From: Clostridia bacterium | GTDB taxonomy: Bacteria; Bacillota; Clostridia; Oscillospirales; CAG-272 | Length of the DNA stretch: 64,000 bases | Direction: 5' to 3' | Assembly (NCBI GenBank): GCA_017462485.1 | Contig: JAFTRA010000035.1 | Span: 64,168-128,167 of the forward strand | Notes under the pieces: generated by a model | Databases searched by the model: none | Seen by the model: the letters and a program-made list of their open reading frames with translations, nothing else | Told to the model about the DNA's origin: nothing | Shown: one piece after another, positions 21,025 to 37,936 of the stretch | How positions within the stretch are numbered: the stretch's first letter is position 1 | Layout: every line of letters begins with the position of its first letter | Position numbers and translations under genes: made by a program

Positions 21025-21110
21025 ACTTTGGTTAGCAATATCAACAATTTATTAAAAAACAAAACCGGCTTTTAGCAAAAATCAAACACAAAAAGAGGGC
21101 GCTACAGTTT

Positions 21111-22256: not shown

Positions 22257-22384
22257 CCGTTTTGACAGAACACACAAATTGATACAAAAAGCAACGTTAT
22301 TGCGGCACATCTTGTCATATACGCTATAAAATACAAAAAGCATAAATTCGTCATTAAAAACATGCCGACAAATATTACGGAAAA

Positions 22385-22417
22385 GAGCGAAGCTTCCACA
22401 AACGGTAAGCTTCGCTC
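22385..22417 (-). terminator. Hairpin between convergent beta-helix and GH28 genes
   Basis: GAGCGAAGCTT (22385-22395) and AAGCTTCGCTC (22407-22417), a perfect 11-bp stem. On the minus strand it is followed by TTTTCC, so it may terminate the GH28 transcript; the T-run is short. The surrounding 22257-22488 holds nothing else I can support. Confidence 0.5.
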
Positions 22418-22488
22418 GAAAATTATGCAATTTATTCAGTTTATGCGAGAGTATCTTATTTTGCTGAAATAATTAGCCTTACGGATAT

Positions 22489-23733
22489 TTATTTAAACTG
22501 AACGTTGTTAAACGTCAAGCTCTTGCAGTGGAGTATCTTAGGGAAGCTGCCGTGATTTTTCTCCTTGCTCTGACCGCCGTGAACGTCTCTGTCGCAAAAG
22601 GCGGAGTAATCAATAGTCTCAAACTCACATTCGGAGAGCTTTATATTTTCAAGCTTGGCGCTTTCTCTGCCCTGGAAGACGAGTCCGGCGGGACTGTCCG
22701 CCCTTATATTTGAGAAGAAGATATTTCTTATAGCGCGAATCTTCGTTTCGGGGTTTGATGCAACCTCAATCTTGATGGGCGGTCCGTATGATTTGTCCAT
22801 TATGATGTTGTTAAAGGAGATATTTTCGATAAGAGTCTCTTCCCTGCCTATATCAGAAGTATAGGGTAAGGCGGGGTTATACTTCATATGAGGAAGAACT
22901 ATCGCTATGCATACCGAGGTGTCCGTCATAACGAGATTCGAGAATACGCAGTTTCTTATAACTCCGTCGTTCATCCAGCCCACTCTTATACCGCTTGCGT
23001 AGCTCGTGAGATTACAGTTGGTTACGGCAACCCTTTCGCAAACCTTATTTTCCTCTAAAGAAACGTTGTTCGCACGGACAACTATGCAGTCGTCACCGCA
23101 GGTGATATCACAGTTTGATATAGTTACGTTTCGCGAGCTGTTAACGTGAATACCGTCGTTATTGGGGTACTCAACCTCGGCAAAAATTTTCACCTTATCA
23201 AAGGTAACGTAGTCGCAGTCGTGAATCCAATAGGACCAGCCCGCAGGCTGATTCACCATAGTTATATCCTCAACCTTAACGTTCTTGCAGCCTGCAAAAA
23301 ATACCGCCCTCGGAGGAGTCGGCGCGTCTATTCTCTTGTAATGCCAATTCTTCGTATTCTCGGCAGGGATAACGAAGCTCTTACCGTTGCAGTCGATAGT
23401 TCCCATACCCGTAATGGAAATATTCTCGCTTTCCTCGGCGTATATGTAGCACGCGTTTCTCCATCTCGGGAGAAGCTCGCTTTTAACGTGCTTAACGTTT
23501 TCCCTCTCGGGATAATCCTCGCATCTCGGTGAGCCGAGAAGAGTCGTTCCCGCGGTTATATGGAAATCTATGTTTGAGCGAAGAATTACGGTGCCGAACA
23601 TATAAGTGCCGCCGTCTATCAGAACTCTTCCGCCGCCGTTTTCGTAGCAAGCGTCAATCGCCCTCTGAATTGGCTCGGTGTTTAAGGTGCTTCCGTCGCC
23701 TATCGCACCGAAATCTCTTATATCAAAAGTCAT
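22489..23733 (-). CDS. Glycoside hydrolase family 28 (polygalacturonase/rhamnogalacturonase-like)
   Basis: 414-residue parallel beta-helix hydrolase acting on galacturonic acid-containing polysaccharides. GH28 hallmarks: DFGAIGDGSTLNTEPIQRAI at the N-terminus, the catalytic-site series NNDGIHV, GDDCIVV (two catalytic Asp) and SGIRVG in place of the classical GHG/RIK region. No signal peptide, so the substrate is probably an imported oligosaccharide. AAGGAG precedes the ATG. Convergent with the two beta-helix genes. Whether it cleaves polygalacturonan, rhamnogalacturonan or unsaturated dimers is unknown. Confidence 0.9.
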   Translation of the reverse strand: MTFDIRDFGAIGDGSTLNTEPIQRAIDACYENGGGRVLIDGGTYMFGTVILRSNIDFHITAGTTLLGSPRCEDYPERENVKHVKSELLPRWRNACYIYAEESENISITGMGTIDCNGKSFVIPAENTKNWHYKRIDAPTPPRAVFFAGCKNVKVEDITMVNQPAGWSYWIHDCDYVTFDKVKIFAEVEYPNNDGIHVNSSRNVTISNCDITCGDDCIVVRANNVSLEENKVCERVAVTNCNLTSYASGIRVGWMNDGVIRNCVFSNLVMTDTSVCIAIVLPHMKYNPALPYTSDIGREETLIENISFNNIIMDKSYGPPIKIEVASNPETKIRAIRNIFFSNIRADSPAGLVFQGRESAKLENIKLSECEFETIDYSAFCDRDVHGGQSKEKNHGSFPKILHCKSLTFNNVQFK

Positions 23734-24001: not shown

Positions 24002-24217
24002 TCATTTTTGTATTTTAGGATTGTCACTGATACCCAGAATATAGTCCACCGAGACGTTATAAAAACAAGAGAGCTTAATCAAAATGTCCGTAGGAATGTC
24101 TCGCTGCCCCAACTCATAGTTACTGTACACCTGCTGGGAACAGTTCAACTGCTTCGCTACGATTTTTTGCGACAAATCCTTGTCTTCCCTCAAGTCTCTT
24201 ATTCTTTTATATACCAT
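24002..24217 (-). CDS. XRE-family HTH regulator, SinR-like, divergent from the SipW/TasA cluster
   Basis: 71-residue single-domain repressor-type protein: RIRDLREDKDLSQKIVAKQL, NCSQQVYSNYELGQRDIP, LSCFYNVSVDYILGI, i.e. the same HTH_3 architecture as the regulator at 7803 and as SinR. GGAGTT precedes the ATG. Its promoter overlaps back to back with a forward promoter (24272-24300) whose spacer contains a dyad. The next forward gene is the SipW-like peptidase at 24619. In Bacillus subtilis SinR represses tapA-sipW-tasA; the same regulatory logic is suggested here by position only. Confidence 0.85.
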   Translation of the reverse strand: MVYKRIRDLREDKDLSQKIVAKQLNCSQQVYSNYELGQRDIPTDILIKLSCFYNVSVDYILGISDNPKIQK

Positions 24218-24246
24218 AATAACTCCAAACTGTATCAGTATATAAA

Positions 24247-24300
24247 ATTATACCAAACTGCACATAAGGTGTTGACTTTTACTGCAAATTGCGGTATAGT
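24247..24300. promoter_or_regulatory. Overlapping divergent promoters with an operator-like dyad
   Basis: Forward: -35 TTGACT (24272-24277), 17-nt spacer, -10 TATAGT (24295-24300). Reverse (HTH gene): -10 TATAAT (24247-24252, with upstream TG), 17-nt spacer, -35 TCAACA (24270-24275). The two -35 boxes overlap. The forward spacer carries ACTGCAAATTGCGGT (24281-24295), a dyad with one mismatch; CCAAACTG is directly repeated at 24225 and 24253. The layout suits autoregulation coupled to control of the forward transcript. Confidence 0.7.
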
Positions 24301-24445
24301 ATATTTGTGGTAATTTTTAGTTTTTTATTCCCTCGATATGTTTTTTGACTGATATAGATACGCGAAAAAACTCACTTGCCACCGCATCCAGCTAAAAGCA
24401 AACTCGAGCGTTAATTAAGCGTAAAAGGATTTTTTTAACAAAATA

Positions 24446-24474
24446 TTGACTTTTAAAATAATTTGTGCTATAAT
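24446..24474 (+). promoter_or_regulatory. Proximal promoter of the SipW/TasA-like cluster
   Basis: -35 TTGACT (24446-24451), 17-nt spacer, -10 TATAAT (24469-24474). Between 24301 and 24445 no gene is seen, so the cluster has two tandem promoters about 174 nt apart. Confidence 0.75.
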
Positions 24475-24618
24475 CTTTTATCTTATATTTACTAAAGTAG
24501 TATATGCACAAAAAACATATCCAAACCATCGCCTATCCACTAAGTAATTTTATGCATTTTAGACAAAAAAGTGTTTTTAGCGATTTATTTAACTAAAGTC
24601 AAACAAAAGGAATTTTTT

Positions 24619-25299
24619 ATGAAAAATCAAGAAAAAGCATCAGACAAGCTTGGGAAAGCACTCACGATAGTAGGCTGGGTGCTCTGCGTAATACTCGTAC
24701 CGATTTTAATTATAAACTGCACGTTGATTATAAAAAGCTACACGGACAAGGAAAGCGTTCCGGACTTTGCGGGAACCGTGCCGTTTATCGTGCTTACCGA
24801 CTCAATGTATCCCGACATTAAGAGCGGAGACCTGATTCTTTGCAAGAAGGTAAACCCGAAAGACGTTGAGGTTGACGACGTTATTTCGTTCTTCGACCCC
24901 GAGGGAAACGGCTCGTCGGTAACGACGCACAAGGTAGTCGAAATTATCGACAAGGCTGACGGAAAATACTTCCGCACAAGAGGTATAAACAACAATACCG
25001 ACGATATGACACCCGTCCACGAGAGTGACGTTATAGCAAGATATACGGGGACAAGACTCCGCGGTATCGGCAATGTTGCGATATTTATGCAAAGCACGGC
25101 GGGACTTATAATATGCGTTGTTCTTCCCATTCTCCTCTTCGTCGGATACGACCTTCTGCGCCGTAGACGCTACGAGAATACAAAAAGTGAGGATATTGAA
25201 GCTCTTAAGAGCGAGCTTGAAGCTCTTCGAGCTATGAAAAACGCTGAATCCGAGGCGAGCTTAACTGAAGCTCCCAAGGAAAATAGCGACACAGAATAA
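24619..25299 (+). CDS. Signal peptidase I, ER/SipW type (first copy)
   Basis: 226-residue membrane protease that removes signal peptides from exported proteins. A first membrane helix (about 14-38) is followed by the catalytic region: Ser62 in LTDSMYP, His104 in TTHKVV (His rather than the Lys of ordinary bacterial enzymes, hence ER/SipW type) and the Asp-containing RGINNNTDD (121-129). A second helix (about 168-190) leads to a charged cytoplasmic coil. The frame extends upstream to 24571, but AAAGGAA fixes ATG 24619. Placed immediately before a TasA-like gene, as sipW precedes tasA in Bacillus. A second, shorter copy lies at 27185. Confidence 0.92.
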   Translation: MKNQEKASDKLGKALTIVGWVLCVILVPILIINCTLIIKSYTDKESVPDFAGTVPFIVLTDSMYPDIKSGDLILCKKVNPKDVEVDDVISFFDPEGNGSSVTTHKVVEIIDKADGKYFRTRGINNNTDDMTPVHESDVIARYTGTRLRGIGNVAIFMQSTAGLIICVVLPILLFVGYDLLRRRRYENTKSEDIEALKSELEALRAMKNAESEASLTEAPKENSDTE

Positions 25300-25320
25300 C
25301 CGTCAAAAAAATTTAATTTG

Positions 25321-25460
25321 TTATTCTTCCCTCGGAAGCCACGTTATCCGGGGGTGAATATAAATTGCCGCGGCGCTTGCCGCAAAAGACCGGCAAAGCC
25401 GGGCAAATATTCTATCCCCGAGTAAGCTGGGATTTCAATCACGAGCTAAGGGAAGAATAA
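25321..25460 (+). ncRNA. Candidate structured cis-regulatory RNA before the major TasA-like gene
   Basis: A perfect 12-bp closing helix pairs TTATTCTTCCCT (25321-25332) with AGGGAAGAATAA (25449-25460). Inside: CGGA/UCCG hairpin; CGGGG+GAAUAT (25349-25361) with ATATTC+CCCCG (25407-25420); within that a three-way junction closed by TTGC/GCAA and holding GCGGC-GCTT-GCCGC (25370-25383) and CCGGC-AAA-GCCGG (25390-25402); then GATT/AATC. A GNRA-capped GCC-GCAA-GGC mini-hairpin (25464-25473) sits before the ribosome site. Not recognised as a known class. GGGGTGAAT and GAGCTAA recall parts of the c-di-AMP (ydaO) riboswitch, but other conserved blocks are missing. Confidence 0.65.
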
Positions 25461-25498
25461 AACGCCGCAAGGCAAATAAACGAAAGGAAAAATTTCTT

Positions 25499-26173
25499 AT
25501 GAAGAAAAACAAGATGATGAGAATTGCTTCCGTTCTCCTGATAGCAGTTCTCCTTTCAACCTGTGCCATCTCAGGCACCTTCGCAAAGTACACTACGTTT
25601 GATGAAAGCTCCGACAAGGCTACCGTAGCTAAGTTCGGTGTTAGCATTGAGGCGCCCAGCACTATGTTCTCTAATTCCTACAAGGATGTAGCTACCACCT
25701 ACACTGCGGGTGAGAACGGTGACACAATTACAGTTCAGTCCTCTACCGAAGGTAAGAACGTTCTCGCTCCCGGTACTAACGGCACTCTTGCCGCCCTTAC
25801 CGTTACGGGTACTCCCGAGGTTGACGTTAAGGTTACTTACTCGGCAAATCTCGAGCTTACCGGTTGGGAAGTTGCCGGCACTCCTTACTGCCCTATCGTT
25901 TTCACAGTTAACGGCACCGAGTATAAGATTGACATCATAGACGGTGAAAACGCTATCACTAATTTTGAAGCAGCCGTAGAGGAGGCTATCAATGATGTAA
26001 CGAATACATACGACACCAATACCGACCTTTCCGCAGTAGTTAGCGACGACCTCACTGTTTCTTGGAAGTGGGATTACGAGGGCAACGATGACGCAAAGGA
26101 CACCGCGCTTGGCGATGCCGCAGCAGCTATCATTGAGCTTACCATTAAGACCACCATCACTCAGGTAAACTAA
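25499..26173 (+). CDS. TasA/camelysin-like secreted protein, probable major fibre subunit
   Basis: 224 residues. Signal sequence (1-29) with a hydrophobic core and the end CAISGTFAKYTTF, similar to SipW-processed substrates. The mature part is Thr/Val/Gly-rich, beta-stranded, and ends with SWKWDYEGNDDAKDTALGDA, a motif shared with the next gene (EWRWDYEGDDAYDTLLGNA). Lysine codons are almost all AAG, unlike neighbouring cluster genes, and resemble thrS; this suggests high expression. A strong ribosome site (AAAGGAA) follows the structured RNA, and a GC-rich hairpin follows the stop. Role as matrix fibre or surface-layer component is inferred from SipW context and family resemblance. Confidence 0.82.
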   Translation: MKKNKMMRIASVLLIAVLLSTCAISGTFAKYTTFDESSDKATVAKFGVSIEAPSTMFSNSYKDVATTYTAGENGDTITVQSSTEGKNVLAPGTNGTLAALTVTGTPEVDVKVTYSANLELTGWEVAGTPYCPIVFTVNGTEYKIDIIDGENAITNFEAAVEEAINDVTNTYDTNTDLSAVVSDDLTVSWKWDYEGNDDAKDTALGDAAAAIIELTIKTTITQVN

Positions 26174-26184
26174 TTTAAGACTTA

Positions 26185-26341
26185 CGAAAGTCAACGTCTT
26201 ATCTCCGCCCCGCCCTTCGTGGCAGGGCGGGCGGGGGTAAAATATTTTTCACCCTTCAAAGCTCTTGAAGTCGAAGAAAAGAAAAAACGTTTCCCACCGT
26301 CTTTTATTCGGTGCTCGGGGGCTTTGAAGGATGAAAAATAT
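26185..26341 (+). other. Hairpin pair between the major subunit gene and the next cluster gene
   Basis: Three elements in order: GACTT-ACG-AAGTC-type small stem at 26188-26202; a very stable GC hairpin CCCGCCC (26209-26215) / GGGCGGG (26225-26231); and a 21-bp stem with one mismatch between 26242-26262 and 26321-26341, whose loop contains CACCG/CGGTG. No T-run follows the GC hairpin, so it is not a simple terminator. It may stabilise the upstream mRNA and limit read-through, or affect translation of the gene starting at 26360. Confidence 0.7.
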
Positions 26342-26359
26342 CCACTCACGGAGAAAAGT

Positions 26360-27148
26360 ATGTCATTTATTTTTGAAAAAATAAGAGACGCTCTCGTTCT
26401 TCTGATTAACTGTATATTACGCTTCTTTATAAGCCCTCTCGGACTTCTCTTGACCGCTCTGTGCATACTCACGGTAATGAGCGGCTCGATTCTCACGTCA
26501 GAGCTTGACGAATACGTAAAATACGATGATCGCGAGGTGTCTCTGAGCGCAAACCTTGAAAAAGAGCTGACTTTGTTTTCGGCTGAATATAAAAGTGAAT
26601 CCGGGGACGTGAAGATTTCGGGACTTGACGGAGAAAAGACTCTCGCCCCCGGTGCTAGCTCAAGCTATCCGCTCCGTTTACGTAACACGGGCGGAATCGC
26701 TCTCGACTGCAGATTTACCTCGTCGGTAGAATTCTCGTCAGAGAAAAAGATTCCTATTGAGGTTCGTCTTACAGCGCCTGACGGAGAATATCTCTGGGGC
26801 AGCGAAACCGAATGGGAAAAAATATCCGACGTCGGTACTATAACCGTAGAAAATCCGATGCCCGTAAACGCGACCGAGGAGTATATTTTCGAGTGGCGAT
26901 GGGATTACGAGGGTGACGATGCCTACGATACCCTGCTCGGAAACGCTGCGGTAAACGAGGAGCTCGGCGTTGAGATTACGGTAGGTATTGCCGCAACGGC
27001 AAACACCGACTTCTTCTTAAACGGCGGACTCTTTAACTCCGCTCTCGGAGAAATAATTATAGTAGGAGCCATCACGGTAATTCTCGGTCTTTGCGCCGCG
27101 ATACTCGTGATTCCCGCAATCCGCGCATACATAAACAAGGATGATTAA
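26360..27148 (+). CDS. Membrane-anchored TasA/camelysin-like protein
   Basis: 262 residues. N-terminal hydrophobic segment (about 10-44), then SELDEYVKYDD, an ectodomain with LAPGASSSYPLRLRNTGG and the EWRWDYEGDDAYDTLLGNA motif shared with the preceding protein, and a C-terminal membrane helix (about 225-252) with a short cytoplasmic tail. The frame continues upstream to 26219 through the hairpins, but GGAG at 26350 fixes the ATG at 26360. The second anchor suggests a cell-bound counterpart to the soluble subunit: an anchor or nucleator for the fibre. This role is inference. Confidence 0.72.
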   Translation: MSFIFEKIRDALVLLINCILRFFISPLGLLLTALCILTVMSGSILTSELDEYVKYDDREVSLSANLEKELTLFSAEYKSESGDVKISGLDGEKTLAPGASSSYPLRLRNTGGIALDCRFTSSVEFSSEKKIPIEVRLTAPDGEYLWGSETEWEKISDVGTITVENPMPVNATEEYIFEWRWDYEGDDAYDTLLGNAAVNEELGVEITVGIAATANTDFFLNGGLFNSALGEIIIVGAITVILGLCAAILVIPAIRAYINKDD

Positions 27149-27184
27149 GTTATCGAATTTTACACGATAAGGTTTTCTTAGAAA

Positions 27185-27769
27185 ATGAACCAAACAAAAA
27201 AAAGCAGCACCAAAACAAAAACTATAATCAGAATAATCCTCACGATTCTTGCGGCGGCTGTTATCGGCTTAAATATTTATACGCTGAATGCGTCTTTTCT
27301 GACGGGTGACGGAATACCAATGCCCCTCGGAGTCGGCGCAGCAGTCGTAGTGTCCGGCAGTATGGAGCCTGAGCTATCCGTTGGCGACCTTATCATAATC
27401 AAAGAGAGGGATGCTTACGAGGTAAATGACGTCATAGTATATCAGGACAACAGAGCCTCGGTTACTCACCGAATAATAGGAATGGATGAAAAAACCGTTA
27501 CCACCAAGGGCGATGCGAACAACACGGAGGACAGCCCCGTAAGATACTCTCAAATAAAAGGAGAGGTCGTATTTGTCATTCCTCTTGTCGGATACCTTGT
27601 AAGCTTCATCAAAACTCCGATAGGAACTCTGTTTATTATAGCTCTCGCTATACTGCTCCTCGAACGCTCCTTTAAGTCGGAAAAGCAAAGCGAGAATAAG
27701 GAAATTGACAAAATACGAGAAGAAATCGAAAAGCTGAAAGCAGAGCAAGGCTCGCAAAACCAGTCGTAA
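27185..27769 (+). CDS. Signal peptidase I, ER/SipW type (second copy)
   Basis: 194 residues. Membrane helix (about 14-34), catalytic Ser59 in VVSGSMEPEL, His95 in SVTHRIIG, Asp region KGDANNTED (108-116), second helix (about 138-160) and a C-terminal Lys/Glu-rich coil. It differs considerably from the copy at 24619 in length and surrounding sequence, so it is not a recent duplicate. The ribosome site is weak (AAGG about 11 nt upstream), and a TTATCG/CGATAA hairpin (27150-27170) sits there. Probably processes some of the TasA-like proteins next to it. Confidence 0.9.
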   Translation: MNQTKKSSTKTKTIIRIILTILAAAVIGLNIYTLNASFLTGDGIPMPLGVGAAVVVSGSMEPELSVGDLIIIKERDAYEVNDVIVYQDNRASVTHRIIGMDEKTVTTKGDANNTEDSPVRYSQIKGEVVFVIPLVGYLVSFIKTPIGTLFIIALAILLLERSFKSEKQSENKEIDKIREEIEKLKAEQGSQNQS

Positions 27770-27797
27770 AAATCACAATGAAAAGGAAGGTGTTTTT

Positions 27798-28256
27798 ATG
27801 ATAAAACCGAATATGAAAACACCTGCTATTTTCAGGGTTGGATTGGCGCTTCTATGCCTTATGCTCTTTTCCTTTGCGCTTATGGGAAATCTATACGCAA
27901 GATACACAGTCTCAGACGCAAGCAGCGACGGCGCTACGGTTGCGACCTTCTCATTCTCCGACGACCTCTCGGAGCAGTCGCTCACTATGGATTTATCTCT
28001 TGCACCGGGAGAATCTGAAGAAACTCCAATAAAAGTAGTAAATAACGGCGAGGTTGCGTTAAAGTGCGTCGTTAAGCTGGATAATCTTACGAACAATCTC
28101 CCTGTTGAAGACAAAGAGGTTACCGTAGATATCCCTATGGGAGAGGAAAAAACCGTGACACTTGAGTTGGAGTGGCCATCTATGAAAAACGACGTTTCAT
28201 TTATGGGAAAAACAGATATTATACGCATCAGTGTTAGAGTCGAGCAAATTGATTAA
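27798..28256 (+). CDS. Small TasA/camelysin-like secreted protein
   Basis: 152 residues. Signal sequence with core GLALLCLMLFSFALMG and exit LYARYTVSD (ARY at 34-36), the same A-(K/R)-Y feature as its neighbours. Mature part about 115 residues: DGATVATFSFSDD, LAPGESEETPIKVVNNGEVA, then beta strands; reminiscent of the camelysin/M73-like fold with a single domain. GGAAGG ribosome site. Directly follows the second SipW-like gene (28 nt), suggesting an enzyme-substrate pair. Possible minor fibre component. Confidence 0.75.
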   Translation: MIKPNMKTPAIFRVGLALLCLMLFSFALMGNLYARYTVSDASSDGATVATFSFSDDLSEQSLTMDLSLAPGESEETPIKVVNNGEVALKCVVKLDNLTNNLPVEDKEVTVDIPMGEEKTVTLELEWPSMKNDVSFMGKTDIIRISVRVEQID

Positions 28257-28285
28257 AGCAAAACAAACCGAGAAAGGACGGCAAA

Positions 28286-29074
28286 ATGAAGAAAACGAAA
28301 ATTTCAAAAAGAACCATAATAATACTCATAGCCGTTCTTGCGGCGCTTATCTTGGCGTCGGTCGGAGCGGTAGTGGCGAAATACGTAAACGAACGAAAAG
28401 GAGATAGATTTATTTTCTCAAAGTCTTTCTATTTCGAAAGCAATTACCTTACTGCGAACAACAAGACTTATTCACTGAATTCAACTCAGAATAGCGTTGA
28501 AATAGAGCTTTACAACTTCGAAAACGAGTGGCGTGTATCCGAGGTTGACACCTCTTATACGGTAACGGTAAGCTCCACTGATACGGAATTTCTTCTTGAC
28601 GGAGAAAAGCTGACAAGCAAGACATACTCCGCAGAAAAAGACACCGCTGTGACAACAAATATTTACTTATCGAACCTTAAACCCGGCGCAAGCTATGAAA
28701 TAGTTGCGATAGCTAGTGGCGGATACACGAAGACACTAAAGGCTACGTTCACCGTCAAGGAGACCTCGGACAAAGCTTATATGAACGTCACGGAAAATAC
28801 AAATCACGTGCTTCTTACGGTGTTTACGGAAAACGTATCGGGAGAGGTAAGCGTTTCCTTCCCCGCAGGTCTTATTCCCGACAACACAGACTCGATTCTT
28901 AAGGATATCGAAAAAAATTATATCGACGGTGAGTACAAGTCCGGAAGCTTCACCTTTAATATCGGCAGCTATTCATCGCGCTCATTCAGATTTTTCAAGG
29001 CAGGAAATTACGCTGGCAGTAATTTCAGCGTTACTCTTGACGGCGAAGCCGTGACGGAAAGCGCTATTTCATAA
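28286..29074 (+). CDS. Secreted protein of unknown function in the TasA-like cluster
   Basis: 262 residues. Hydrophobic N-terminus IIILIAVLAALILASVGAVV followed by AKYVNE (AKY at 31-33), again the SipW-substrate-like signature. The mature part has YTVTVSSTDTEFLLDG and YEIVAIASGGYTKTL, suggesting two immunoglobulin/fibronectin-like beta domains, and no C-terminal anchor. AAAGGA ribosome site; 30 nt after the previous gene, 22 nt before the giant beta-helix gene. No specific family recognised. Confidence 0.65.
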   Translation: MKKTKISKRTIIILIAVLAALILASVGAVVAKYVNERKGDRFIFSKSFYFESNYLTANNKTYSLNSTQNSVEIELYNFENEWRVSEVDTSYTVTVSSTDTEFLLDGEKLTSKTYSAEKDTAVTTNIYLSNLKPGASYEIVAIASGGYTKTLKATFTVKETSDKAYMNVTENTNHVLLTVFTENVSGEVSVSFPAGLIPDNTDSILKDIEKNYIDGEYKSGSFTFNIGSYSSRSFRFFKAGNYAGSNFSVTLDGEAVTESAIS

Positions 29075-29096
29075 TTTCAAGGAAAGGAACTGTATA

Positions 29097-32000
29097 ATGA
29101 GAGGAAATTCTCTTTTGCGTAACAAGCGAATTCTATTATTTGCTCGCGTTTTCATTTTAGTGACGTTTATACTTCTCGGGTTAGTTCTTCTCGTTAATAC
29201 AGCGGGAGCGGCAGACGTCGAATATATTTATTTCGACCTTTCCGCAGGTAACGTTTCGATAAGCGGAAATTCATACACGGGATATGCTTATCAGAAAAAC
29301 GACGATAACAGCTTTACAACGGTAACTCTAAGCGGAACTCTTGGCGAAAATCAAGCCTACTACGTCTATCAGTCAAAAGGCATTGAAACCTCTTCTCCCG
29401 ACGGATATTTTGTTCTTGGAACGGACGGCGAAAAGAATTACACACTTCCCACAAGAGCTAAGGTTACTCACAACGGTAAGACCTGGCAGGAATACATAAC
29501 TAACAATACTGACGTTGAAGGCGTTATAGCAGCCTGGATAGCTTTCTCGGGACGCACGGCAACGAGTAACCGCATAGCCGTCAGCGGCACGCTTGACGCA
29601 ACGCTCGTTATTGATAACCTCTATTCAAAGTATATCTCTGCCGCTGCTACGGGCAGAACCGACGGTGGCTTATCCTTCGTTCCTCAAGGAAAGTCACAGC
29701 TCCGAGTCGAGCTTGTTGGAGACAATCGCTTCGGAAACGTGTTTTACGGAACCAATTCGGACAATCAGCAGATTGTATTTGACGAGAAAGAAAAAAATGC
29801 GACGCTGACGGTTGCTAACATAGCTTCTAAGTCAAAGCAAAACTACTGGTGCTCCGCGATAGGCGCCTCTGATAACACTCGAGAGAACGCAAAGGGCATC
29901 GTAATAGAGGGCGGAACCATTTATGCCGGAACTAACGCAGGTGACGACTGCACGGCAATCGGTGCCGGCGGAAACGGATACGGACTTGTAACCATTAAGG
30001 GTGGAACTGTAACCGCCGTTACATCGTCAAGCGGTGCCGCAATAGGCGGAGGTATAGGCAAGACCTCTAAAGGAGGCTCCGCAAGCGTTACCATTAGCGG
30101 CGGAACCGTTTACGCATATAATTTCTCGTGTTCATCGGGTAGTTACTCCAAGCTTGGAGTTGCCTATATTCCGTCGGCAGCTATCGGTGGCGGTAGCTCG
30201 GCAAGAGAAACCTGCAATTCATCTACAATTACCATTACCGGAGGAAAAGTTTTCGCGCAGAGCGTTGGCGGAACTGCTATCGGCGGCGGTAGCTCTTCCG
30301 ATAACACAGGCGGCTCTTCAACCGTCGTTATAGGCGGAAACGCTTACGTTGAAGCGAAGAGTATCGCCGGAACTATATCGGGCAACGCCGTTTCTGCCGG
30401 TGTTTCTATCGGCGGAGGAACAGGCGGTAAAGGAGCTAACAAAAACGGCGGCGACGTTACGCTTACGATAAAGGAAAACGCAACCGTTGTCGCAGGCTCT
30501 ATCGGCGGTGGAAAGACTATTTCGTCCTCCGGAGGAAAAATAGGCGCCGCAACGGTTACAGTAACCGGCGGAAGTATAAAGGGACAGATAGTTATGGCGC
30601 AAGGTTCTTCGACTCAATGCACGTTTACTATGTCCGGCGGTACTATCGACAATTCGGGACGTGACGCCTCCTTCGTATTTCTTGAGGAAAACGGCGGAGC
30701 TATTTATATGGACGACCAGAGAGGTCAGGCTACTGTTTCCGGTGGAAAAATCACGAACTGCTCCTCGAAAAACGGCGGAGCTATCTATATGTCGGCGGGA
30801 ATCTTTACTCTTTCCGGTGAAGGATCTATCAGCAATTGCTCGGCTACCGAAAACGGCGGAGCTATTTGCCTTGACGGTGATTCGGGAGAAGCTAACATTC
30901 TGGGCGGAAGCGTTTCCGGTTGCTCCGCGGTTCAAGGCGGCGCCATTTATATGGGCGGCGGTACTCTCTCTATGAGCGGAGGAGAAGCAACCTACAATAA
31001 CGCCGATAATGGCGGCGCTATATACCTTTACGACGGTAACGCAACGATATCGGGAGGCTCGATAACCGATTGCCATGCTACAGAAAACGGCGGAGCTATC
31101 TACATGGGAGGCGGTACTCTCTCTATGAGTGACGGAGAGGTTTCATCCTGTGATGCCGTCAACGGCGGCGCGGCTTATCTTAAGCTCGGCAATATGAGCG
31201 TTTCGGGAGGCTCTATAAACAATAACGAAGCGTCGGATGACGGAGGCGCTCTCTACCTCGGCGGCGGTGAGCTTACCGTTTCCAAAGGAGAAATTTCTTA
31301 TAACAGCGCAATAAATGGCGGCGGAGCGTTCGTTGCAAACGGTGACGCAACCGTTACGGGCGGCGTTATATATAAAAATACTGCCTCGGGCAACGGCGGC
31401 GGTATTGATATAAGCAACGGTAACTTTATTATGTCCGGCGGAAGCATTGACGGAAACGTGGCGACTAACGGTGACGGCGGCGCTATTTACGTCTCCTCCT
31501 CGCAAAACAACTCGGTGATCACGGTTAGCTCCGGCTCGATTATAAACAATTACGCAGGAGGCAACGGCGGCGCGCTCGGAGTTCACGGTCAGGACGGAAT
31601 AACATTCACTATAACCATAGGCAAAAACACCAATCACGAAGGGTTTGAAAACGCGCACGAATGCGAAAATTCAGATGCAACCGAGCACTGCCCTATTATT
31701 AAAAATAATGAAGCCGTGACAAGCGGCGGCGGCATATATCTTTCTGGCTCTTACGAAGCGAAAATGAACATCTACTGCCTCATAGAAGACGGAAACGAAG
31801 CCGAGGGCGGCGTTTCACGAAGCAACTTTATGGAGGTTCAGGGCGGAACGCTTACAATTTCAACCCTCAGCGACGACGGCACGGGTGACTACGGAAACGT
31901 AGTTATCAACTCCACCGTTCACGTAAACGGAGGTAAGGTAACGCTCGAGGGTACGGGCGATTCTCCTCATTTCAACGGCTCGGTTTACGTTGACGTTAAC

Positions 32001-34784
32001 GAGGCGGAGGGATCTACCTTCTTAGACGGCAGAACCGAACGTTCATCCTACACGGTTCAGTACTTTGAAAACTTCGGTGAGGGTGCTGACAGGTCGGGTG
32101 AGTATATTCTGGTCGATGTACCTGCCGGAACGACGCACTTCGTTCAGGCGAACTCTTACTCCAACGTCGGTTTTGAATTCAAGCACTGGGTTCTTATGGA
32201 AAGAGATGAGAACAACAAGCTTCAGGAAACGTCGGAAACCTACGCCCCCGGAAAAGATGTAACGGTTAATAAGAATCTTATCTTCCACGCAAAATGGTTT
32301 GCGGTGGGATATACCGTTATATTCAAGCCCGGCACCGAAGAATTTGAGAACACTATGGAGCCTCAAACCTTTTTATACACCGATACCACTAAGGCGCTGA
32401 CGTTAAACAATTTCGTTTATCCGGGCTTCTCATTCGTTAAATGGATAGACGAGGATACCGGCGACGTATACACTAACGGTCAGATTCTGGCAACTCCCAT
32501 AAGAACGGAAGACGGAGCGGTAGTAAATCTCGTTGCGGAGTGGACTACCTGCTATCACACCGATATGGGCAGTTACCATATTTCCAATCCGTCGGATAAT
32601 ATTATGCTTCGTGAATGCCCCTGCGGCGGATATAACGAAACGGCTACTCTGCTTGGCGGAATAAACACCGTATATGACGAAAGCAAGGTTCATACCGCAA
32701 GCGTCAGCTATTATACGTACAGCGTCAACAGCCACTATCCGTCGGATACATGGAGCTTCGAGATAAAATACTCGGGAAACAACTGGGAAAACGTTCCGTT
32801 TGACGAAGAAAATCTCGTTCCCCAAAACGCCGGAAAATACAAAGCTTCTATCGAATTTAACGGATATACGGCATTCGTTGAAATAGTCATAGAAAAGGCC
32901 GAACAAGCCGCGCCCGGCATACCTCAATACGAGGCGCAGACGCTGGACGGAAAAACCACTCTCATAATTACCGAAACAACCTTTATCCCCGGTCTTGAAT
33001 ATCTTTTCACCTGGTACGACGATATTGAGGGCGTGTATATGTACGACGGCTGGAACAAGTGGACCGACGAGGCAAATCCTCCCAGCTGTCCTCTTGACAG
33101 AATTTACACTAACTACTACGTGGACGTTCGCTATGCGGAAACCGAAAACTATAAGGCTTCACCTGCGGTACGCGGAGAAACGGTAATTATGCACACGGGC
33201 GGTGTCATATTCCGAATCACTTGCGCCGCCGCTTCGGGCATAACGCAAATGACAGACGAAGACTCCTCCGCTGAGTCCGGAGTTACGGTCAATCTCATTC
33301 CGCTTGACATAAACCTCTACTACATCTACAACGTTACTTACGAAATGTATTCGGATTATACCGGTTACGTTTTGCCAGAAATAAGCTACGATGACATCTC
33401 GGGCGAGCATTGGATAGCCAGAATAACCAAAATCCAGAACGCCCCCGACGACGTTGAAAGCGTTACGATATATATTACATTCTCGGGAGCCGAGCTTATT
33501 CCTACGGTCGAGGCCTCAACCGATAAGGGTGAAAACTTTGACGGCGCCCTCGGCGGCTTGGGCGATGACGTTTACGTCAGCCGCGATTCAGCTTACACCG
33601 CAGAGTTCAAGATTGGAAACTACAAGCATTACGGTGCAGCCTCTCTCGTTTTCTCGCACAGTCTTCCAATAGGAACGACGGTTATTATGATTGACGAGAA
33701 CGACGGCTCGTACTACTCTTACGTGATAAGCAGCGAGGCAGCCTCAATTCCCATATCGAGCAATTTCGTTCGTATGGGCTCGAATGAAGCGTATCCGTCA
33801 TTCCCTCCGGAGAGCGAACGCCTTAACTTCAGGTTTATAATAGATTTCTCGCGATGCGAGAGCTATATTGCAGCCTCCGAGCTAACCGCAAGCTTCTACG
33901 CTGTGCCTATTTATCCCTCTGATGACGTAAAAACCGTTCCCAATCTTCCTACCGGGGTGGGAGCTATAGCCACGGTTAAGCTGGTTAACGTACCGACGTT
34001 TGATTTGTACGTTTCACTCGATTCGACGGATTCTCTCACCAAAAACCTGACTTGCAAATACGCCGAGTCGCAGAACACCGCGGCAGGTATTTCGAGATGG
34101 GAAGCAAGACGCGGCATTCTGGTAATAACACCAAGCGACTTATCGGCTCTGCCGCCCGACACGAGACTTCGGGTCAAAATAACCAACAAAACGAATACCT
34201 ATTACCTTAGTGATGGAAAGTATATAATTCCTCTTACCTCGGTGGGTACTGATGACGTTTCCATAACTCTCGTTTCGGATATGATTCCCAACGAGAACGC
34301 AGATTTCGTATTTTCCGTAAAAATGTTCTCGTCATACACGAGGGCGACGACCTCACCCGACGAGGAAATAGCAAATCTTTTGCCTATAACTCTCACCTAC
34401 AAGGTGAGCGAGGTGCCCGAGCCCGAGCTTCACGCAGAGCTTGACGGCGCTCTCCCCGAATACAAGGATGGAGCTATAAGCAAAGCGGAGCTTAAGGTTC
34501 TCTTAAAGGGCTTGCCCGAGGGCTACAGCGTAAAGGCAGTCGTTTACGTAAAGGATAAGGCAAGCGGACGGTATATTGCCGCGCAAACGACAGACCTCAC
34601 GAGCTATTTCGAAAACAGTGAGACCGAAATATCTGCTACTCTTGAGTTCAATTCTCTTCTCGACCGTATGAGCGCGGAGATAGGAAGCCTCAGCATTATG
34701 GCGCGCGTCGAGATAATCGACCAAAACGAAAAAACGCTTACTTACGTACCGGTTTACTTTATCCTTAAGGATACGAGACAGTAA
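29097..34784 (+). CDS. Giant secreted beta-helix adhesin-like protein
   Basis: 1895 residues. Signal peptide (1-38, ending NTAGAADV). Residues about 250-510: Gly-rich coils of the type AIGGG...TVTISGGTVYA. Residues about 530-900: 13 units built on NGGAIYM...SGG. Then two InlB/Listeria-Bacteroides-type repeats (about 983-1066 and 1066-1150; FKHWVL...NLIFHAKW, FVKWIDEDTG...LVAEW), an MBG-like region (about 1194-1270; NAGKYKASIEFNGYTAFV) and a long C-terminal beta-rich part. No LPXTG, SLH or membrane anchor at the C-terminus, so it is released or held by the TasA-like proteins. AAAGGAA ribosome site. Probable function: adhesion or matrix scaffold. Confidence 0.82.
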   Translation: MRGNSLLRNKRILLFARVFILVTFILLGLVLLVNTAGAADVEYIYFDLSAGNVSISGNSYTGYAYQKNDDNSFTTVTLSGTLGENQAYYVYQSKGIETSSPDGYFVLGTDGEKNYTLPTRAKVTHNGKTWQEYITNNTDVEGVIAAWIAFSGRTATSNRIAVSGTLDATLVIDNLYSKYISAAATGRTDGGLSFVPQGKSQLRVELVGDNRFGNVFYGTNSDNQQIVFDEKEKNATLTVANIASKSKQNYWCSAIGASDNTRENAKGIVIEGGTIYAGTNAGDDCTAIGAGGNGYGLVTIKGGTVTAVTSSSGAAIGGGIGKTSKGGSASVTISGGTVYAYNFSCSSGSYSKLGVAYIPSAAIGGGSSARETCNSSTITITGGKVFAQSVGGTAIGGGSSSDNTGGSSTVVIGGNAYVEAKSIAGTISGNAVSAGVSIGGGTGGKGANKNGGDVTLTIKENATVVAGSIGGGKTISSSGGKIGAATVTVTGGSIKGQIVMAQGSSTQCTFTMSGGTIDNSGRDASFVFLEENGGAIYMDDQRGQATVSGGKITNCSSKNGGAIYMSAGIFTLSGEGSISNCSATENGGAICLDGDSGEANILGGSVSGCSAVQGGAIYMGGGTLSMSGGEATYNNADNGGAIYLYDGNATISGGSITDCHATENGGAIYMGGGTLSMSDGEVSSCDAVNGGAAYLKLGNMSVSGGSINNNEASDDGGALYLGGGELTVSKGEISYNSAINGGGAFVANGDATVTGGVIYKNTASGNGGGIDISNGNFIMSGGSIDGNVATNGDGGAIYVSSSQNNSVITVSSGSIINNYAGGNGGALGVHGQDGITFTITIGKNTNHEGFENAHECENSDATEHCPIIKNNEAVTSGGGIYLSGSYEAKMNIYCLIEDGNEAEGGVSRSNFMEVQGGTLTISTLSDDGTGDYGNVVINSTVHVNGGKVTLEGTGDSPHFNGSVYVDVNEAEGSTFLDGRTERSSYTVQYFENFGEGADRSGEYILVDVPAGTTHFVQANSYSNVGFEFKHWVLMERDENNKLQETSETYAPGKDVTVNKNLIFHAKWFAVGYTVIFKPGTEEFENTMEPQTFLYTDTTKALTLNNFVYPGFSFVKWIDEDTGDVYTNGQILATPIRTEDGAVVNLVAEWTTCYHTDMGSYHISNPSDNIMLRECPCGGYNETATLLGGINTVYDESKVHTASVSYYTYSVNSHYPSDTWSFEIKYSGNNWENVPFDEENLVPQNAGKYKASIEFNGYTAFVEIVIEKAEQAAPGIPQYEAQTLDGKTTLIITETTFIPGLEYLFTWYDDIEGVYMYDGWNKWTDEANPPSCPLDRIYTNYYVDVRYAETENYKASPAVRGETVIMHTGGVIFRITCAAASGITQMTDEDSSAESGVTVNLIPLDINLYYIYNVTYEMYSDYTGYVLPEISYDDISGEHWIARITKIQNAPDDVESVTIYITFSGAELIPTVEASTDKGENFDGALGGLGDDVYVSRDSAYTAEFKIGNYKHYGAASLVFSHSLPIGTTVIMIDENDGSYYSYVISSEAASIPISSNFVRMGSNEAYPSFPPESERLNFRFIIDFSRCESYIAASELTASFYAVPIYPSDDVKTVPNLPTGVGAIATVKLVNVPTFDLYVSLDSTDSLTKNLTCKYAESQNTAAGISRWEARRGILVITPSDLSALPPDTRLRVKITNKTNTYYLSDGKYIIPLTSVGTDDVSITLVSDMIPNENADFVFSVKMFSSYTRATTSPDEEIANLLPITLTYKVSEVPEPELHAELDGALPEYKDGAISKAELKVLLKGLPEGYSVKAVVYVKDKASGRYIAAQTTDLTSYFENSETEISATLEFNSLLDRMSAEIGSLSIMARVEIIDQNEKTLTYVPVYFILKDTRQ
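30688..31755 (+). repeat. Imperfect coding repeats of 78-90 bp within the giant adhesin gene
   Basis: About 13 tandem units, each containing GGCGGAGCTAT or a variant encoding GGAIY. The stretch GGCGGTACTCTCTCTATGAG occurs twice (near 30956 and 31109), so part of the array has duplicated fairly recently. The units code for beta-helix turns. Confidence 0.8.
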
Positions 34785-35008
34785 GCTTTACCGTAATACT
34801 CCAAGCAGAGTATTCACGCTAAGTTATGATTTCCCTCTCGGGCAATCTATGAGCGATGAGATGCTTCGCATCGCTATGATAGAAGTTTCTCTCCGGAATT
34901 ATTATTTTTATCGTCTTATACTGAATAGAAAAAGCAGGGGCGCTGAATTTCAGCGCCCCTGCCGTGTTACTTGAGTCTAAAGTAAATCCAAAAGACTCGT
35001 TTTATATT
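34785..35008. other. Intergenic stretch between convergent cluster end and lipoprotein gene
   Basis: Holds a 7-bp hairpin AGCGATG (34852-34858)/CATCGCT (34869-34875) with no clear T-run, and the terminator at 34934-34962. No gene seen. Confidence 0.5.
34934..34962 (-). terminator. Strong palindromic terminator of the 960-residue lipoprotein gene
   Basis: GCAGGGGCGCTGAA (34934-34947) pairs with 34949-34962 (14 bp). On the minus strand it is followed by TTTTT, so it mainly ends the lipoprotein transcript. Confidence 0.8.
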
Positions 35009-37891
35009 TTATTTGCCTTCGTTCTGAACGGGTTGATCATCGGACAAACCTACGTTAACGGTTGCGTCGATATCGCCCTTAACAGACTCAAGGCAAATTA
35101 CGATGTAGCACGTTTCTACGTTATTGCCAACGGTGAATGAAGTAGCTTTATCTTCGTAAACATATCTGCTACTATATTCTTCAACGTTATTATTTCCTTC
35201 GTACTTAACGAATACTACGTAGTAAATCTCATAAAGGTTTCCTTTCTCGTCGGTATAGGAAACATCAATAGACTGGCTTCCGTCAGGAGCGTATTCGATA
35301 ACAAGCACGTTGTTGCCGAAATCTTTATCAACGTCAGCGTTCTCAACGGAATTGGTAGCGCCGGTCAAGTCGCAGTTTACGGAAACGGTACCGATGCTCT
35401 TCGAGTAGGTGCATCCTTCTCTCTCGCAAGACTCGGTTACAACGTAAACGCCGTCAACGAGCTCGGACTTCATTGTTTCATTGTGACCCTTAGTCCAGTA
35501 ATATTTAAATTCAGCCTGGCAGATAGAGCACTTATAGTGGTCATAGTAAACTGCGGTGCAGTTATCGCCTGTAGTAGAGGTTGCTTCCTGATATACGTAG
35601 TTATGACCTTTATTGTAGTTTTCTGCGGAAGCAACGCCGGTCTTTGTGTTAAGAAGGAATTCAGCGTTTTCGGTAGTGTTCTCAACGTTAGCTTCCTCGG
35701 GCTCGGGAATAGTATCCGCAGTTATCTGCGCGAGAATCAATGTACTTGTGTTGAGAGCAGTGTCAAGAATCTCTACAGTTGCCGTACCTCTCTTAGCGTT
35801 GAATACAGGGCTAACCTCAACGGTATCGGTGCAGCCGCCCAAAAGAGCTAAGCCGAATACGTCGGTGTACGTTACGTAGGTAATCTCAAGGTTAGCATAA
35901 CGCTGTTCATTCACAGTACTTGTGCCATTGTAGTCAACGATTATCAAGCGGTCGCCGTCGTCAATAACCTTAACGTCGCTCCAACCGTCGTAGTAGTCAT
36001 TGAAAGCAGCAAGAATATTTTCCTTGGTCAATGCGTCAGAGCCAACCTTAACCTCTGCCTTAAGAGCGGTAAGATTTGCAGCGTCGTAGTTGATAGTGTA
36101 ATCGGGGATAAGCTCCATAGTCATATCGAACTCTGCGCCCTCTGCCGCGATAACTTCCTTCATAGTAAGAACGGTCTTACCAAGAACGTTAGTTACGGTG
36201 AGGTTAAGAGTTAACTCGGAGCTGGTGAGAACGAAGGTGGAAAGGTTCTTAGAAAGAACGATTACGATGCCCTCACCGGTCTTACCGGGGATAGCAATGT
36301 TAACGTTGATAGCGGAAACTACGTTGCCCTCGCCAATAGCAAGCGTAAATGTGAATATCTTTGCAGCCTGGTCTACCATAGCGTTGAAGCTTTCGATCAT
36401 AGCAGCAGTGGGATCTTCCTCTTCAGTTTCGGAGAGAGGAACAGGAGTGTTGTCGTTGCCGTCAGCTCCGTCTTTGCCATCAGTGCCGCCGTTGAGATTG
36501 TTATCTACTTGAGGACCGAAGCTCTGAACAAGCTCGAATACGGTCATAGTCTTAAGGTCTGCAAAGTACTTAACTATATCAGCCTTAAGAGCAGCAAAGG
36601 CAACATCTGCCTCGTTAACGTCGGGAGTATCGGGATTGTCAACCTCACCCTCTACCATAAGGAGAGCGTCCTTAACGGAAAGAGCAAGAACGGTTTCATC
36701 AGCAAGAACTGCGTTAAGGTCGAAGTTCTCGGGAAGCTCAACAGATGCGCCCATCATAGAGAGGAGCATAGGAAGAACGTTGGTTTCGAAGGTAGGAGCG
36801 GGAGCGCCATCCTCTGCAGGCATAAATACTGCAACGAGACCGTCGATAGCGTCAAGAAGAGCGCCAAGGTCAACGCCCTGCTCTGTCTTGAGATAGTTAA
36901 GAAGATCTGCTACAGAGTAGTTATAGAGCTTATCGTCAGCAACGAGAGCCTCAAGAGAAGCGTAAGTGCCTTCGCCTACAACTTTATCAACGAGAACGCT
37001 GATATCATCGGTAAGGATAGCTGCATACCAGGTCTTAACAGCCTCAAAGCTGAGAGCTGCGCCGGTCTCGGTCTTAACGAACAAGGAGTTAAGAAGAGCT
37101 GCGGTGTACTTATTAAAAGCTGCCTCTACGCCATCAAGCTTAACGTTAGCGAAGATAGGAGCAAGAGACTCTTCATACCAGGTCTCAACAGCAGGAAGGT
37201 ACTGATTTACCATAGCCATAGCCTGCTCAGCCTGAGCCTTAATTTCTACGAGCTCTGCAATCTTGGTAACGTCTATGTAGCCTACTACGTCATCGGGATT
37301 GGTGCTGTGAGTCATAGGAGTAACGCCGTAAGCGTCAAACCAGAGAACGTTATCCTCAATGTAGAACTTAGCGTCAACGGCGGATACACGGTTGTTATCA
37401 TAACCGTAAGCCATAGTGAGCTTACCTGTTCCGTAGCCCTGGAGCATACCGTCTTCATCAACGGTAACGAAGAGCTCTGCGTTCTCCATACCCATAACGC
37501 CGGTATTAAGAGCGCTGCCCTCGGTGAACTTAGCGCTGTAGTTGGAAATCTTAACGCCAAAAGAGCTCATCTCGGGAACAGTAACTGCGTCAAAGGTGAT
37601 AAGGGGCGCATAGCAGGTTTCACATACGATAACGCCGTTGTGAGGAACTGTGATATCGCGAACTTCCTTTTCGGTACAGCCGGAGCAAGCGCGCTCCTCC
37701 TGTCCCTTTGCGGTACAAGTTGCGGGTGTTTTTACAGTCCATTCACCCCAACTGTGAGTGTGAGTGGTTTCGTTGTTCTCGTTGTTTTCATTGTTTTCTT
37801 CGTTGTTTTCTTCATCGTCTTTATTACAAGAAGTAAGAACGAAGCTCATTGCCAAAACGAGACACAGCAAGAGTAAGAGTAATTTTTTCAT
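35009..37891 (-). CDS. Large lipoprotein (960 residues) of unknown function
   Basis: Lipoprotein signal MKKLLLLLLCLVLAMSF with lipobox VLTSC, then an Asn/Glu-rich linker (EENNEENNENNENN) and an HSWGEW...CTAKGQEERACSGC motif. Long alpha-helical middle with Val/Ala-rich segments, an acidic/Gly linker near NGGTDGKDGADGND, and a C-terminal region with paired Cys (CSIC, CEREGC). Start chosen at 37891 because GGAGGT lies 4 nt upstream; an upstream ATG at 37903 overlaps that site. Codon use is biased towards AAG like thrS, suggesting an abundant cell-surface protein. The GHN..CxxC motifs resemble those in the lipoprotein at 6023. No enzyme motif recognised. Confidence 0.78.
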   Translation of the reverse strand: MKKLLLLLLCLVLAMSFVLTSCNKDDEENNEENNENNENNETTHTHSWGEWTVKTPATCTAKGQEERACSGCTEKEVRDITVPHNGVIVCETCYAPLITFDAVTVPEMSSFGVKISNYSAKFTEGSALNTGVMGMENAELFVTVDEDGMLQGYGTGKLTMAYGYDNNRVSAVDAKFYIEDNVLWFDAYGVTPMTHSTNPDDVVGYIDVTKIAELVEIKAQAEQAMAMVNQYLPAVETWYEESLAPIFANVKLDGVEAAFNKYTAALLNSLFVKTETGAALSFEAVKTWYAAILTDDISVLVDKVVGEGTYASLEALVADDKLYNYSVADLLNYLKTEQGVDLGALLDAIDGLVAVFMPAEDGAPAPTFETNVLPMLLSMMGASVELPENFDLNAVLADETVLALSVKDALLMVEGEVDNPDTPDVNEADVAFAALKADIVKYFADLKTMTVFELVQSFGPQVDNNLNGGTDGKDGADGNDNTPVPLSETEEEDPTAAMIESFNAMVDQAAKIFTFTLAIGEGNVVSAINVNIAIPGKTGEGIVIVLSKNLSTFVLTSSELTLNLTVTNVLGKTVLTMKEVIAAEGAEFDMTMELIPDYTINYDAANLTALKAEVKVGSDALTKENILAAFNDYYDGWSDVKVIDDGDRLIIVDYNGTSTVNEQRYANLEITYVTYTDVFGLALLGGCTDTVEVSPVFNAKRGTATVEILDTALNTSTLILAQITADTIPEPEEANVENTTENAEFLLNTKTGVASAENYNKGHNYVYQEATSTTGDNCTAVYYDHYKCSICQAEFKYYWTKGHNETMKSELVDGVYVVTESCEREGCTYSKSIGTVSVNCDLTGATNSVENADVDKDFGNNVLVIEYAPDGSQSIDVSYTDEKGNLYEIYYVVFVKYEGNNNVEEYSSRYVYEDKATSFTVGNNVETCYIVICLESVKGDIDATVNVGLSDDQPVQNEGK

Positions 37892-37936
37892 GTTTACCTC
37901 CATTTTTTGTTTTTTAAAAGGTTTCCCTTTTACATC

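Follow-up and report, generated by a model that had tools for sequence, protein, structure and literature searches.

We analysed a 64,000-nucleotide stretch from the genome of a Clostridia bacterium (assembly GCA_017462485.1, contig JAFTRA010000035.1, positions 64,168 to 128,167; hereafter the window). The evidence assembled here supports a SipW-type surface system in it, inherited as a set of seven genes with a giant secreted protein last. The genes, sip1-A-B-sip2-C-D-giant, run forward on one strand from 24619 to 34784 with no other gene between them (Table 1), as a first-pass annotation made from the letters alone had described. Position 24002, with which that annotation began, belongs to a minus-strand gene for a 71-amino acid helix-turn-helix (HTH) protein and lies outside the run. 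The products are two signal peptidases of the endoplasmic reticulum (ER) type (sip1 and sip2), four small exported proteins (A to D), and the giant. We consider it somewhat probable that the locus makes a SipW/TasA-type protein fibre, as a variant with two peptidases that would polymerise without a sortase, with B as its base and the giant attached via D. The host genome (G000; G and L numbers are our handles for genomes and loci) is 2.23 Mb in size and 98% complete.

The gene set recurs far outside the window. We scanned named genomes with the alignment of sip2 alone and took the best 80 loci, so that the taxonomic spread is a lower bound. Upstream counts refer to the 56 of 80 loci with more than 4.5 kb of upstream DNA and downstream counts to the 56 of 80 with more than 8 kb of downstream DNA; the other 24 were excluded in each case. 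The exact order sip1-A-B-sip2 was found in 46 of 56 loci, and sip1, A, and B all lay upstream in 49 of 56. Downstream, C immediately followed sip2 in 44 of 56 loci, a D-type gene was nearby in 22 of 56, and a secreted protein of at least 600 amino acids (829 to 2904) was encoded within five genes in 38 of 56. Without the loci from the six genomes used to build the profiles, the exact order was present in 42 of 50 loci and C came directly next in 42 of 53. The genes are thus conserved together, one of the two points on which the first-pass annotation had staked its proposal. Because metagenome contigs may lack sequence, each absence reported here carries less weight.

By record title, the loci belong mostly to Clostridia, including Ruminococcus flavefaciens, Blautia, and [Clostridium] asparagiforme, and the hosts are largely uncultured gut and rumen bacteria. 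Outside Clostridia, the best 80 loci include Enterococcus, Erysipelotrichaceae, and Adlercreutzia. The earlier proposal of a clostridial equivalent of the Bacillus fibre genes therefore holds as regards a SipW-type surface system whose genes are inherited together, but not as regards its confinement to Clostridia. Within the host's own family, sip2 was matched at E 1e-5 in 63 of 146 genomes, often twice a few kb apart. Among 20 family stretches inspected, nine had sip1-A-B-sip2 (one with a doubled A), four had sip1-A-sip2 without a called B, three started within the cluster at a contig end, and the remaining four were another cluster type with AYF/AWL signal ends. Within the family, this second type of SipW cluster, separate from that of the window, is seen in L072, L073, and L074, where it also encodes several small secreted proteins. 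Plasmid and phage collections returned distant peptidases only.

Both peptidases pass the NCBIfam model TIGR02228 (cut-off 51.85; scores in Table 1) and match the SipW equivalog NF046067 at 91 and 86 bits, under its cut-off of 190. A third, weaker TIGR02228 match lies on another contig of the genome. In the catalytic-residue alignment, the Ser is present in 66 of 67 sip1 and 79 of 81 sip2 sequences (the rest are gaps), the His in all, and the second Asp in 66 of 67 and 81 of 81, respectively. The first Asp of the GDxN motif is found in 63 of 67 sip1 and 81 of 81 sip2 sequences; among the 67, it is replaced by Ile in the window sip1 and two others and by Thr in one. The initial call of two ER-type signal peptidases with Ser, His, and Asp residues is thereby confirmed, with Ile at the first Asp of sip1. 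A tree of 143 peptidases (sequences shorter than 160 amino acids left out; sip1 and sip2 labels taken from profile scores) separated 67 sip1 from 70 sip2 without error, with a support of 0.85 for the sip1 clade; six peptidases of the AYF/AWL cluster type fall on the sip1 side. Distances among sip1 and among sip2 sequences correlate (r 0.82, 57 loci, 0 of 1000 permutations). By these measures, sip1 and sip2 are two separate, co-varying lineages that form a conserved pair. We conclude that the pair is ancient and has been retained, an argument for different substrates. The separation in the tree rules out a recent duplication, and the layout that had been called expanded is, as regards the peptidases, a pair conserved across loci and not a local expansion.

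The small proteins share a signal style. An Ala-[Lys/Arg]-Tyr signal end (A[KR]Y) is present in A, C, and D of the window. It occurs at the signal end of 70 of 73 A, 18 of 20 D, and 0 of 57 B proteins, and in the form A[KR][YF] in 46 of 52 C proteins. D had been described as a further secreted protein with the same signal style, and so it proves, although it is not TasA-like. The donor strand of TasA is its mature N-terminus (PMC9674648, as far as the available text goes), and by analogy the mature N-termini of A, C, and D may act likewise.

Profile-profile comparison (hhalign) links A to B (99.3%) and to C (99.5%). We also compared the proteins with camelysin (PF12389) members, in a first set of 19 sequences and a second of 22 to which L167-L169 had been added. 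For the 19-sequence set, L167-L169, L173, L186, L187, and L192 had yielded no open reading frame (ORF) that passed our filter, and ORFs of at least 340 amino acids (L184 and L185) were excluded; L167 and L168 are Bacillus-like CalY/TasA loci. Protein C scored 97% at full length in both sets and 94% with its mature part, and B scored 90 to 91% and 90 to 92%, respectively, across both sets; reversed decoys reached at most 0.4%. Long-type D scored 67% and 74% at full length yet 0.7% and 4.8% with its mature part, so that only its signal region is alike. Judged by these profiles, B and C are remote camelysin relatives, A is one only through B and C, and D is unrelated. Three TasA/camelysin-like proteins had been described; remote profile similarity bears this out for B and C, whereas A is linked only via these two and no model cut-off was passed. 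The window's A, B, and C do not reach the cut-offs of the Pfam and NCBIfam models for TasA, camelysin, and BsaA. PF12389 reached its gathering score neither among 34 A sequences nor in the window's genome, and no TasA, camelysin, or BsaA NCBIfam model was passed by the 34 A sequences or by 28 C sequences. The BsaA model TIGR04090 (cut-off 60 bits) listed only the window C among these 28, at 12.8 bits (E 0.07).

Protein B is the presumed anchor, and in most relatives it would be a wall anchor of the sortase type. Among 75 B proteins including that of the window (those below 60 bits or of 700 amino acids or more were omitted), 54 end in xPxTG and a membrane segment, usually with a basic tail, 8 have a degenerate motif, and 13 have none. 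The window B has no xPxTG-type sorting motif at its C-terminus. It falls in a monophyletic clade (support 1.00) of B proteins without a sorting tail, together with those of G068, G082, G128, G135, and L075. We searched for sortases (PF04203) in 40 genomes, chosen with the motif state known and the sortase state not. All 22 genomes with a motif-bearing B yielded a sortase. One was also found in 2 of the 10 genomes whose anchored B lacks the motif (G367 and G368), in 3 of 4 with a degenerate motif (none in G369), in both genomes whose B match is missing a C-terminal membrane segment, and in 1 of the 2 with no B next to sip2. PF04203 found none in G000, G068, G031, G135, G128, G082, G357, and G360, all of which have an anchored B without motif. 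The window's genome was negative in two PF04203 searches; G113 was positive in only one of the two, so that sortases can escape this search. In a family sample of 14 genomes with B (in G123, only the tail of the B model is matched), sortase was present in 8 of 8 with the motif and 0 of 6 without. Fisher tests, which ignore ancestry, gave 1.4e-6 (G369 counted as without motif) and 3e-4.

The first-pass annotation had described a double-anchored TasA-like protein. Because the sorting tail is common in relatives, and neither tail nor sortase was found here, the double anchor is best read as that of a sortase-anchored wall protein minus its sorting signal. The window B thus looks like a wall anchor turned membrane anchor, with wall anchoring presumably lost along with the sortase. 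TIGR01076 was tried as a check on sortase absence and set aside: it matched 2 of 16 genomes, with none in G000, and missed sortases that PF04203 had found. As a separate observation, three checked B proteins of the window's clade have a C-terminal domain resembling ribosomal protein uL15 (PF00828, E 2e-10 to 4e-12), which is presumably cytoplasmic.

The giant has an ordinary-looking signal without an A[KR]Y end, and its C-terminus ends in VPVYFILKDTRQ. By eye, residues from about 245 to 930 are repeats of beta-helix appearance; a List_Bact repeat at 1072-1127 is sub-threshold, and the POMP repeat TIGR01376 scores 20 bits against a cut-off of 15. The window giant has neither xPxTG nor a C-terminal membrane segment, and none of 57 giants checked has a sorting tail with such a segment. 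It aligns along most of its length with the giants of L152, L089, L078, and L082. We tabled 53 giants, keeping apart those cut by the end of a contig or locus, and defined a strong long-type D as one above 200 bits. Twelve of the 53, including that of the window, adjoin a strong long-type D (11 complete and one cut), and all 11 complete ones end in a YYFIV-like strand (10 by pattern; L152, with an extended end, by eye). Among 18 giants with a WLxGN-like end, none has a strong long-type D (L091 has a weak match of 18.5 bits); 12 have a short-type D-like match, possibly C itself, as short D and C are related. The other 23 belong to neither class, are cut, or have other ends. On this pairing, D and the giant are evidently an exchangeable module, and the pairing suggests that D holds the giant.

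The RNA between the genes singles out A. Against shuffles, the sip1-A gap of the window folds with z -4.8 and -5.0 and the A-B gap with z -6.8. We folded gaps of 80 to 350 nt in relatives (46 of 64 sip1-A and 57 of 64 A-B), and z was -3 or lower in 54 of 57 A-B gaps and 31 of 46 sip1-A gaps. The same threshold was reached in 6 of 65 controls from the 180 nt before sip1 and in 1 of 67 from inside sip1. Thus, A alone is flanked by strong hairpins that may process or stabilise its RNA, which fits a major subunit. The two intergenic RNAs of the window match no credible Rfam family, and each is single-copy in the genome. The single copy also led us to reject the A-B hairpin as a repeated mobile element.

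We propose the following mechanism. The SipW-like peptidases would cut exported A, C, and D just before the conserved Lys/Arg-Tyr. The N-terminus thereby exposed on A, and probably that on C, would then serve as the donor strand that completes the next subunit, so that A polymerises. B, which lacks the cleavage signature, would remain at the membrane and hold the base, whereas most relatives would have it joined to the wall by a sortase. C may cap the fibre or link it to D. D would hold the giant, probably via the conserved C-terminal strand of the latter, and the giant could be presented as an adhesin. The hairpins on either side of A would raise A above the other subunits.

Several points weigh against this proposal. 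Gene order deviates in 10 of 56 loci, and a secreted protein of at least 600 amino acids was not seen within five genes in 18 of 56. The direct comparison of A with camelysin is unstable (87% in the first set and 47% in the second at full length, 29% and then 0.5% with the mature part). When the comparison is restricted to the TasA/CalY ORFs of L167 and L168, no small protein is linked (A 3%, B 5%, C 33%, and D 6%), and a sequence search of solved structures returned nothing for A or B. The association of motif and sortase is confounded by ancestry: the clade of the window B is one event, and the tree requires just five changes in all for the pattern, some of them on single tips. Sortase-less G360 is only 0.8 Mb in size. 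Last, the pattern of giant ends beside D was defined after the protein ends had been seen.

A first alternative is an arrangement with no fibre at all, in which the TasA-like proteins form a membrane or wall scaffold or coat that displays the giant directly, and SipW only releases them. The membrane-bound window B, the unstable link of A to camelysin, and the lack of an A[KR]Y end in the giant's signal are all compatible with such a coat. We nevertheless hold it to be unlikely, given that the flanking hairpins single out A, as expected of a polymer subunit, and that A, C, and D share the mature N-terminus that serves TasA as donor strand. Less likely still are two adjacent systems, with sip1-A(-B) making a matrix fibre and sip2-C-D-giant a separate unit that exports a giant adhesin. 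Each half would then have its own peptidase, and the spacing agrees: median gaps are 141 and 177 nt around A, as against 1 nt for B-sip2, 22 nt for sip2-C, and 13 nt for C-D. Yet the halves co-occur in most loci, the peptidases co-vary, C is TasA-like, and B and sip2, adjacent or overlapping, bridge the two. That SipW-like enzymes process non-fibre envelope proteins here, in a cluster that serves, for example, spore or surface-layer assembly, is very improbable: SipW-type signal ends are found on the proteins encoded next to the peptidases, B and C are remotely related to TasA, and some of the loci come from Enterococcus and Adlercreutzia, which are not known to form spores.

The proposed fibre has partial counterparts in described systems. 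In the literature surveyed, as far as its texts were available, TasA-type fibres have been studied in Bacillus and, as BsaA, in one Clostridium. One of the closest is the sipW-bsaA system of Clostridium perfringens, which forms SipW-dependent BsaA polymers (PMC7395162). It resembles the window locus in its small, beta-rich, SipW-dependent filament proteins, its accessory extracellular proteins, and its polymerisation without a sortase; it differs in that the available part of that paper names one SipW, no giant, and no TasA-like anchor of the sortase type. In tapA-sipW-tasA of Bacillus subtilis and sipW-tasA-calY with CapP of Bacillus cereus, an ER-type peptidase likewise lies by jelly-roll subunits, the mature subunit N-terminus is the donor strand, and a minor partner starts the fibre (PMC9674648, PMC10151520, PMC4292775, and PMC13082335). 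Unlike for the window, the portions of these papers available describe one peptidase, no giant, and no wall-sorted TasA-like base. The similarity of the window proteins to Bacillus TasA/CalY alone is too remote to see by sequence. Archaeal bundling pili, from another domain of life, are donor-strand fibres of TasA-like subunits according to PMC9674648 and PMC10151520, which cite them.

A likeness also exists to the sortase-built pili of Gram-positive bacteria, in that the B of relatives, with its wall-sorting tail, would be the base and a large surface protein is encoded in the operon. In contrast to such pili, only B regularly carries a sorting signal among the cluster proteins checked, a search that did not extend to the A, C, and D of relatives; by eye, A, C, and D of the window have none. 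In titles and abstract openings, mostly without subscription papers, we found no description of an operon with two SipW peptidases, a wall-sorted TasA-like protein, and a giant. Our findings open the possibility, which we put forward tentatively and as somewhat short of an even chance, of a general class of Gram-positive donor-strand pili without a pilin sortase. Here, two long-diverged dedicated SipW peptidases would mature shaft and tip proteins separately, and a TasA-like base would be tied to the wall by sortase or kept in the membrane where sortase was lost. Modules of giant adhesins and matching adaptors would be swapped at the far end, and an invertible promoter would switch the fibre in some lineages.

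A conserved seven-gene version of the fibre would give gut and rumen bacteria a likely means to stick to food particles, to mucus, or to each other. It raises testable questions: why two SipW peptidases are kept side by side, how the fibre is tied to the cell, what happens in sortase-less lineages, and how expression is turned on and off. That B lost its sorting tail in genomes from which no sortase was recovered would amount to a natural experiment in how fibres are anchored.

Table 1. Features of the locus and of relatives. Coordinates are those of the window unless a locus is named.
Feature	Coordinates	Strand	Description
sip1	24619-25299	+	ER-type (SipW-like) signal peptidase, 226 aa; TIGR02228 90 bits
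A	25499-26173	+	Secreted, 224 aa, TFA-KY signal end; presumed major fibre subunit
B	26360-27148	+	TasA-like, 262 aa, membrane segments at N- and C-terminus; presumed fibre base/anchor, without sorting signal
sip2	27185-27769	+	ER-type (SipW-like) signal peptidase, 194 aa; TIGR02228 91 bits
C	27798-28256	+	Short secreted TasA-like protein, 152 aa, LYA-RY signal end
D (long type)	28286-29074	+	Secreted, 262 aa, SipW-style signal, not TasA-like; presumed adaptor for giant
Giant	29097-34784	+	Secreted, 1895 aa, last gene of run
sip1-A intergenic RNA	25300-25498	+	Structured; minimum free energy -69.7 kcal/mol
A-B intergenic RNA	26174-26359	+	Large hairpins; folding z -6.8
XRE-type HTH regulator	24002-24217	-	71 aa; HTH_3 PF01381 E 6e-14; divergent from operon
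Candidate invertible segment	24335-24521		13-nt perfect inverted repeats, 24335-24347 and 24509-24521
Sigma-70-like promoter	24446-24474	+	TTGACT-17-TATAAT, extended -10; 11/12 consensus matches; between the repeats, reads into sip1
B with uL15-like end	L055:5785-6927, L075:8613-9995, L061:7325-8515		PF00828; close relatives of window
Probable invertible promoter	L139 -344..-38, L143 -359..-61, L148 -363..-74 (relative to sip1)		Tyrosine recombinase adjacent

In some relatives, the operon is preceded by a probable invertible promoter. Among 63 loci with upstream DNA, a recombinase match lies a short way upstream of sip1 in seven (weak and partial in L102) and an inverted repeat of at least 13 nt precedes sip1 in five; shuffles predict 0.36 loci with such a repeat and none with 20 nt, as against five and three observed. 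Both repeat and recombinase are present in L139, L143, and L148, where perfect repeats of 20 to 23 nt lie ~250 to 260 nt apart and enclose a promoter with 11 or 12 of 12 consensus matches that points away from sip1. L138, L140, and L150 have a recombinase without a repeat of at least 13 nt, and L117 and L127 a repeat without a recombinase. The family stretches L055, L064, and L070 have repeats of 15, 24, and 28 nt, respectively; between them, L055 has no promoter match, L064 has one weaker match, and L070 has two weak ones. In gut Clostridia, invertons are tied to tyrosine recombinases (PMC11892184, available in part); the main text of that paper gave no match for 'TasA' or 'signal peptidase'.

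The segment before sip1 in the window is a weaker candidate for an invertible promoter, the promoter being a consensus match only. Its 13-nt repeat occurs genome-wide only as that pair, and 21 of 2000 shuffles of the 401-nt intergenic region gave a repeat at least as long. A search of the window's genome at E 1e-20 found no close relative of the L055 recombinase. The divergent HTH gene was considered as a fixed part of the locus and rejected: among the best 80 loci, a similar gene was seen in L078, where it is divergent and 235 nt upstream of sip1, and in L099, where the distance to sip1 is 2.9 kb.

Directly upstream of the run, at 19492-23733, are three more proteins of right-handed beta-helix look (by eye), one of which (22489-23733, minus strand) we take to resemble GH28 polygalacturonases. 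A terminator-like hairpin that would act in both directions lies at 34933-34963. Convergent with the giant gene, at 35009-37903 on the minus strand, is a gene for a 964-amino acid secreted protein with a lipoprotein-like signal and no family over cut-off.

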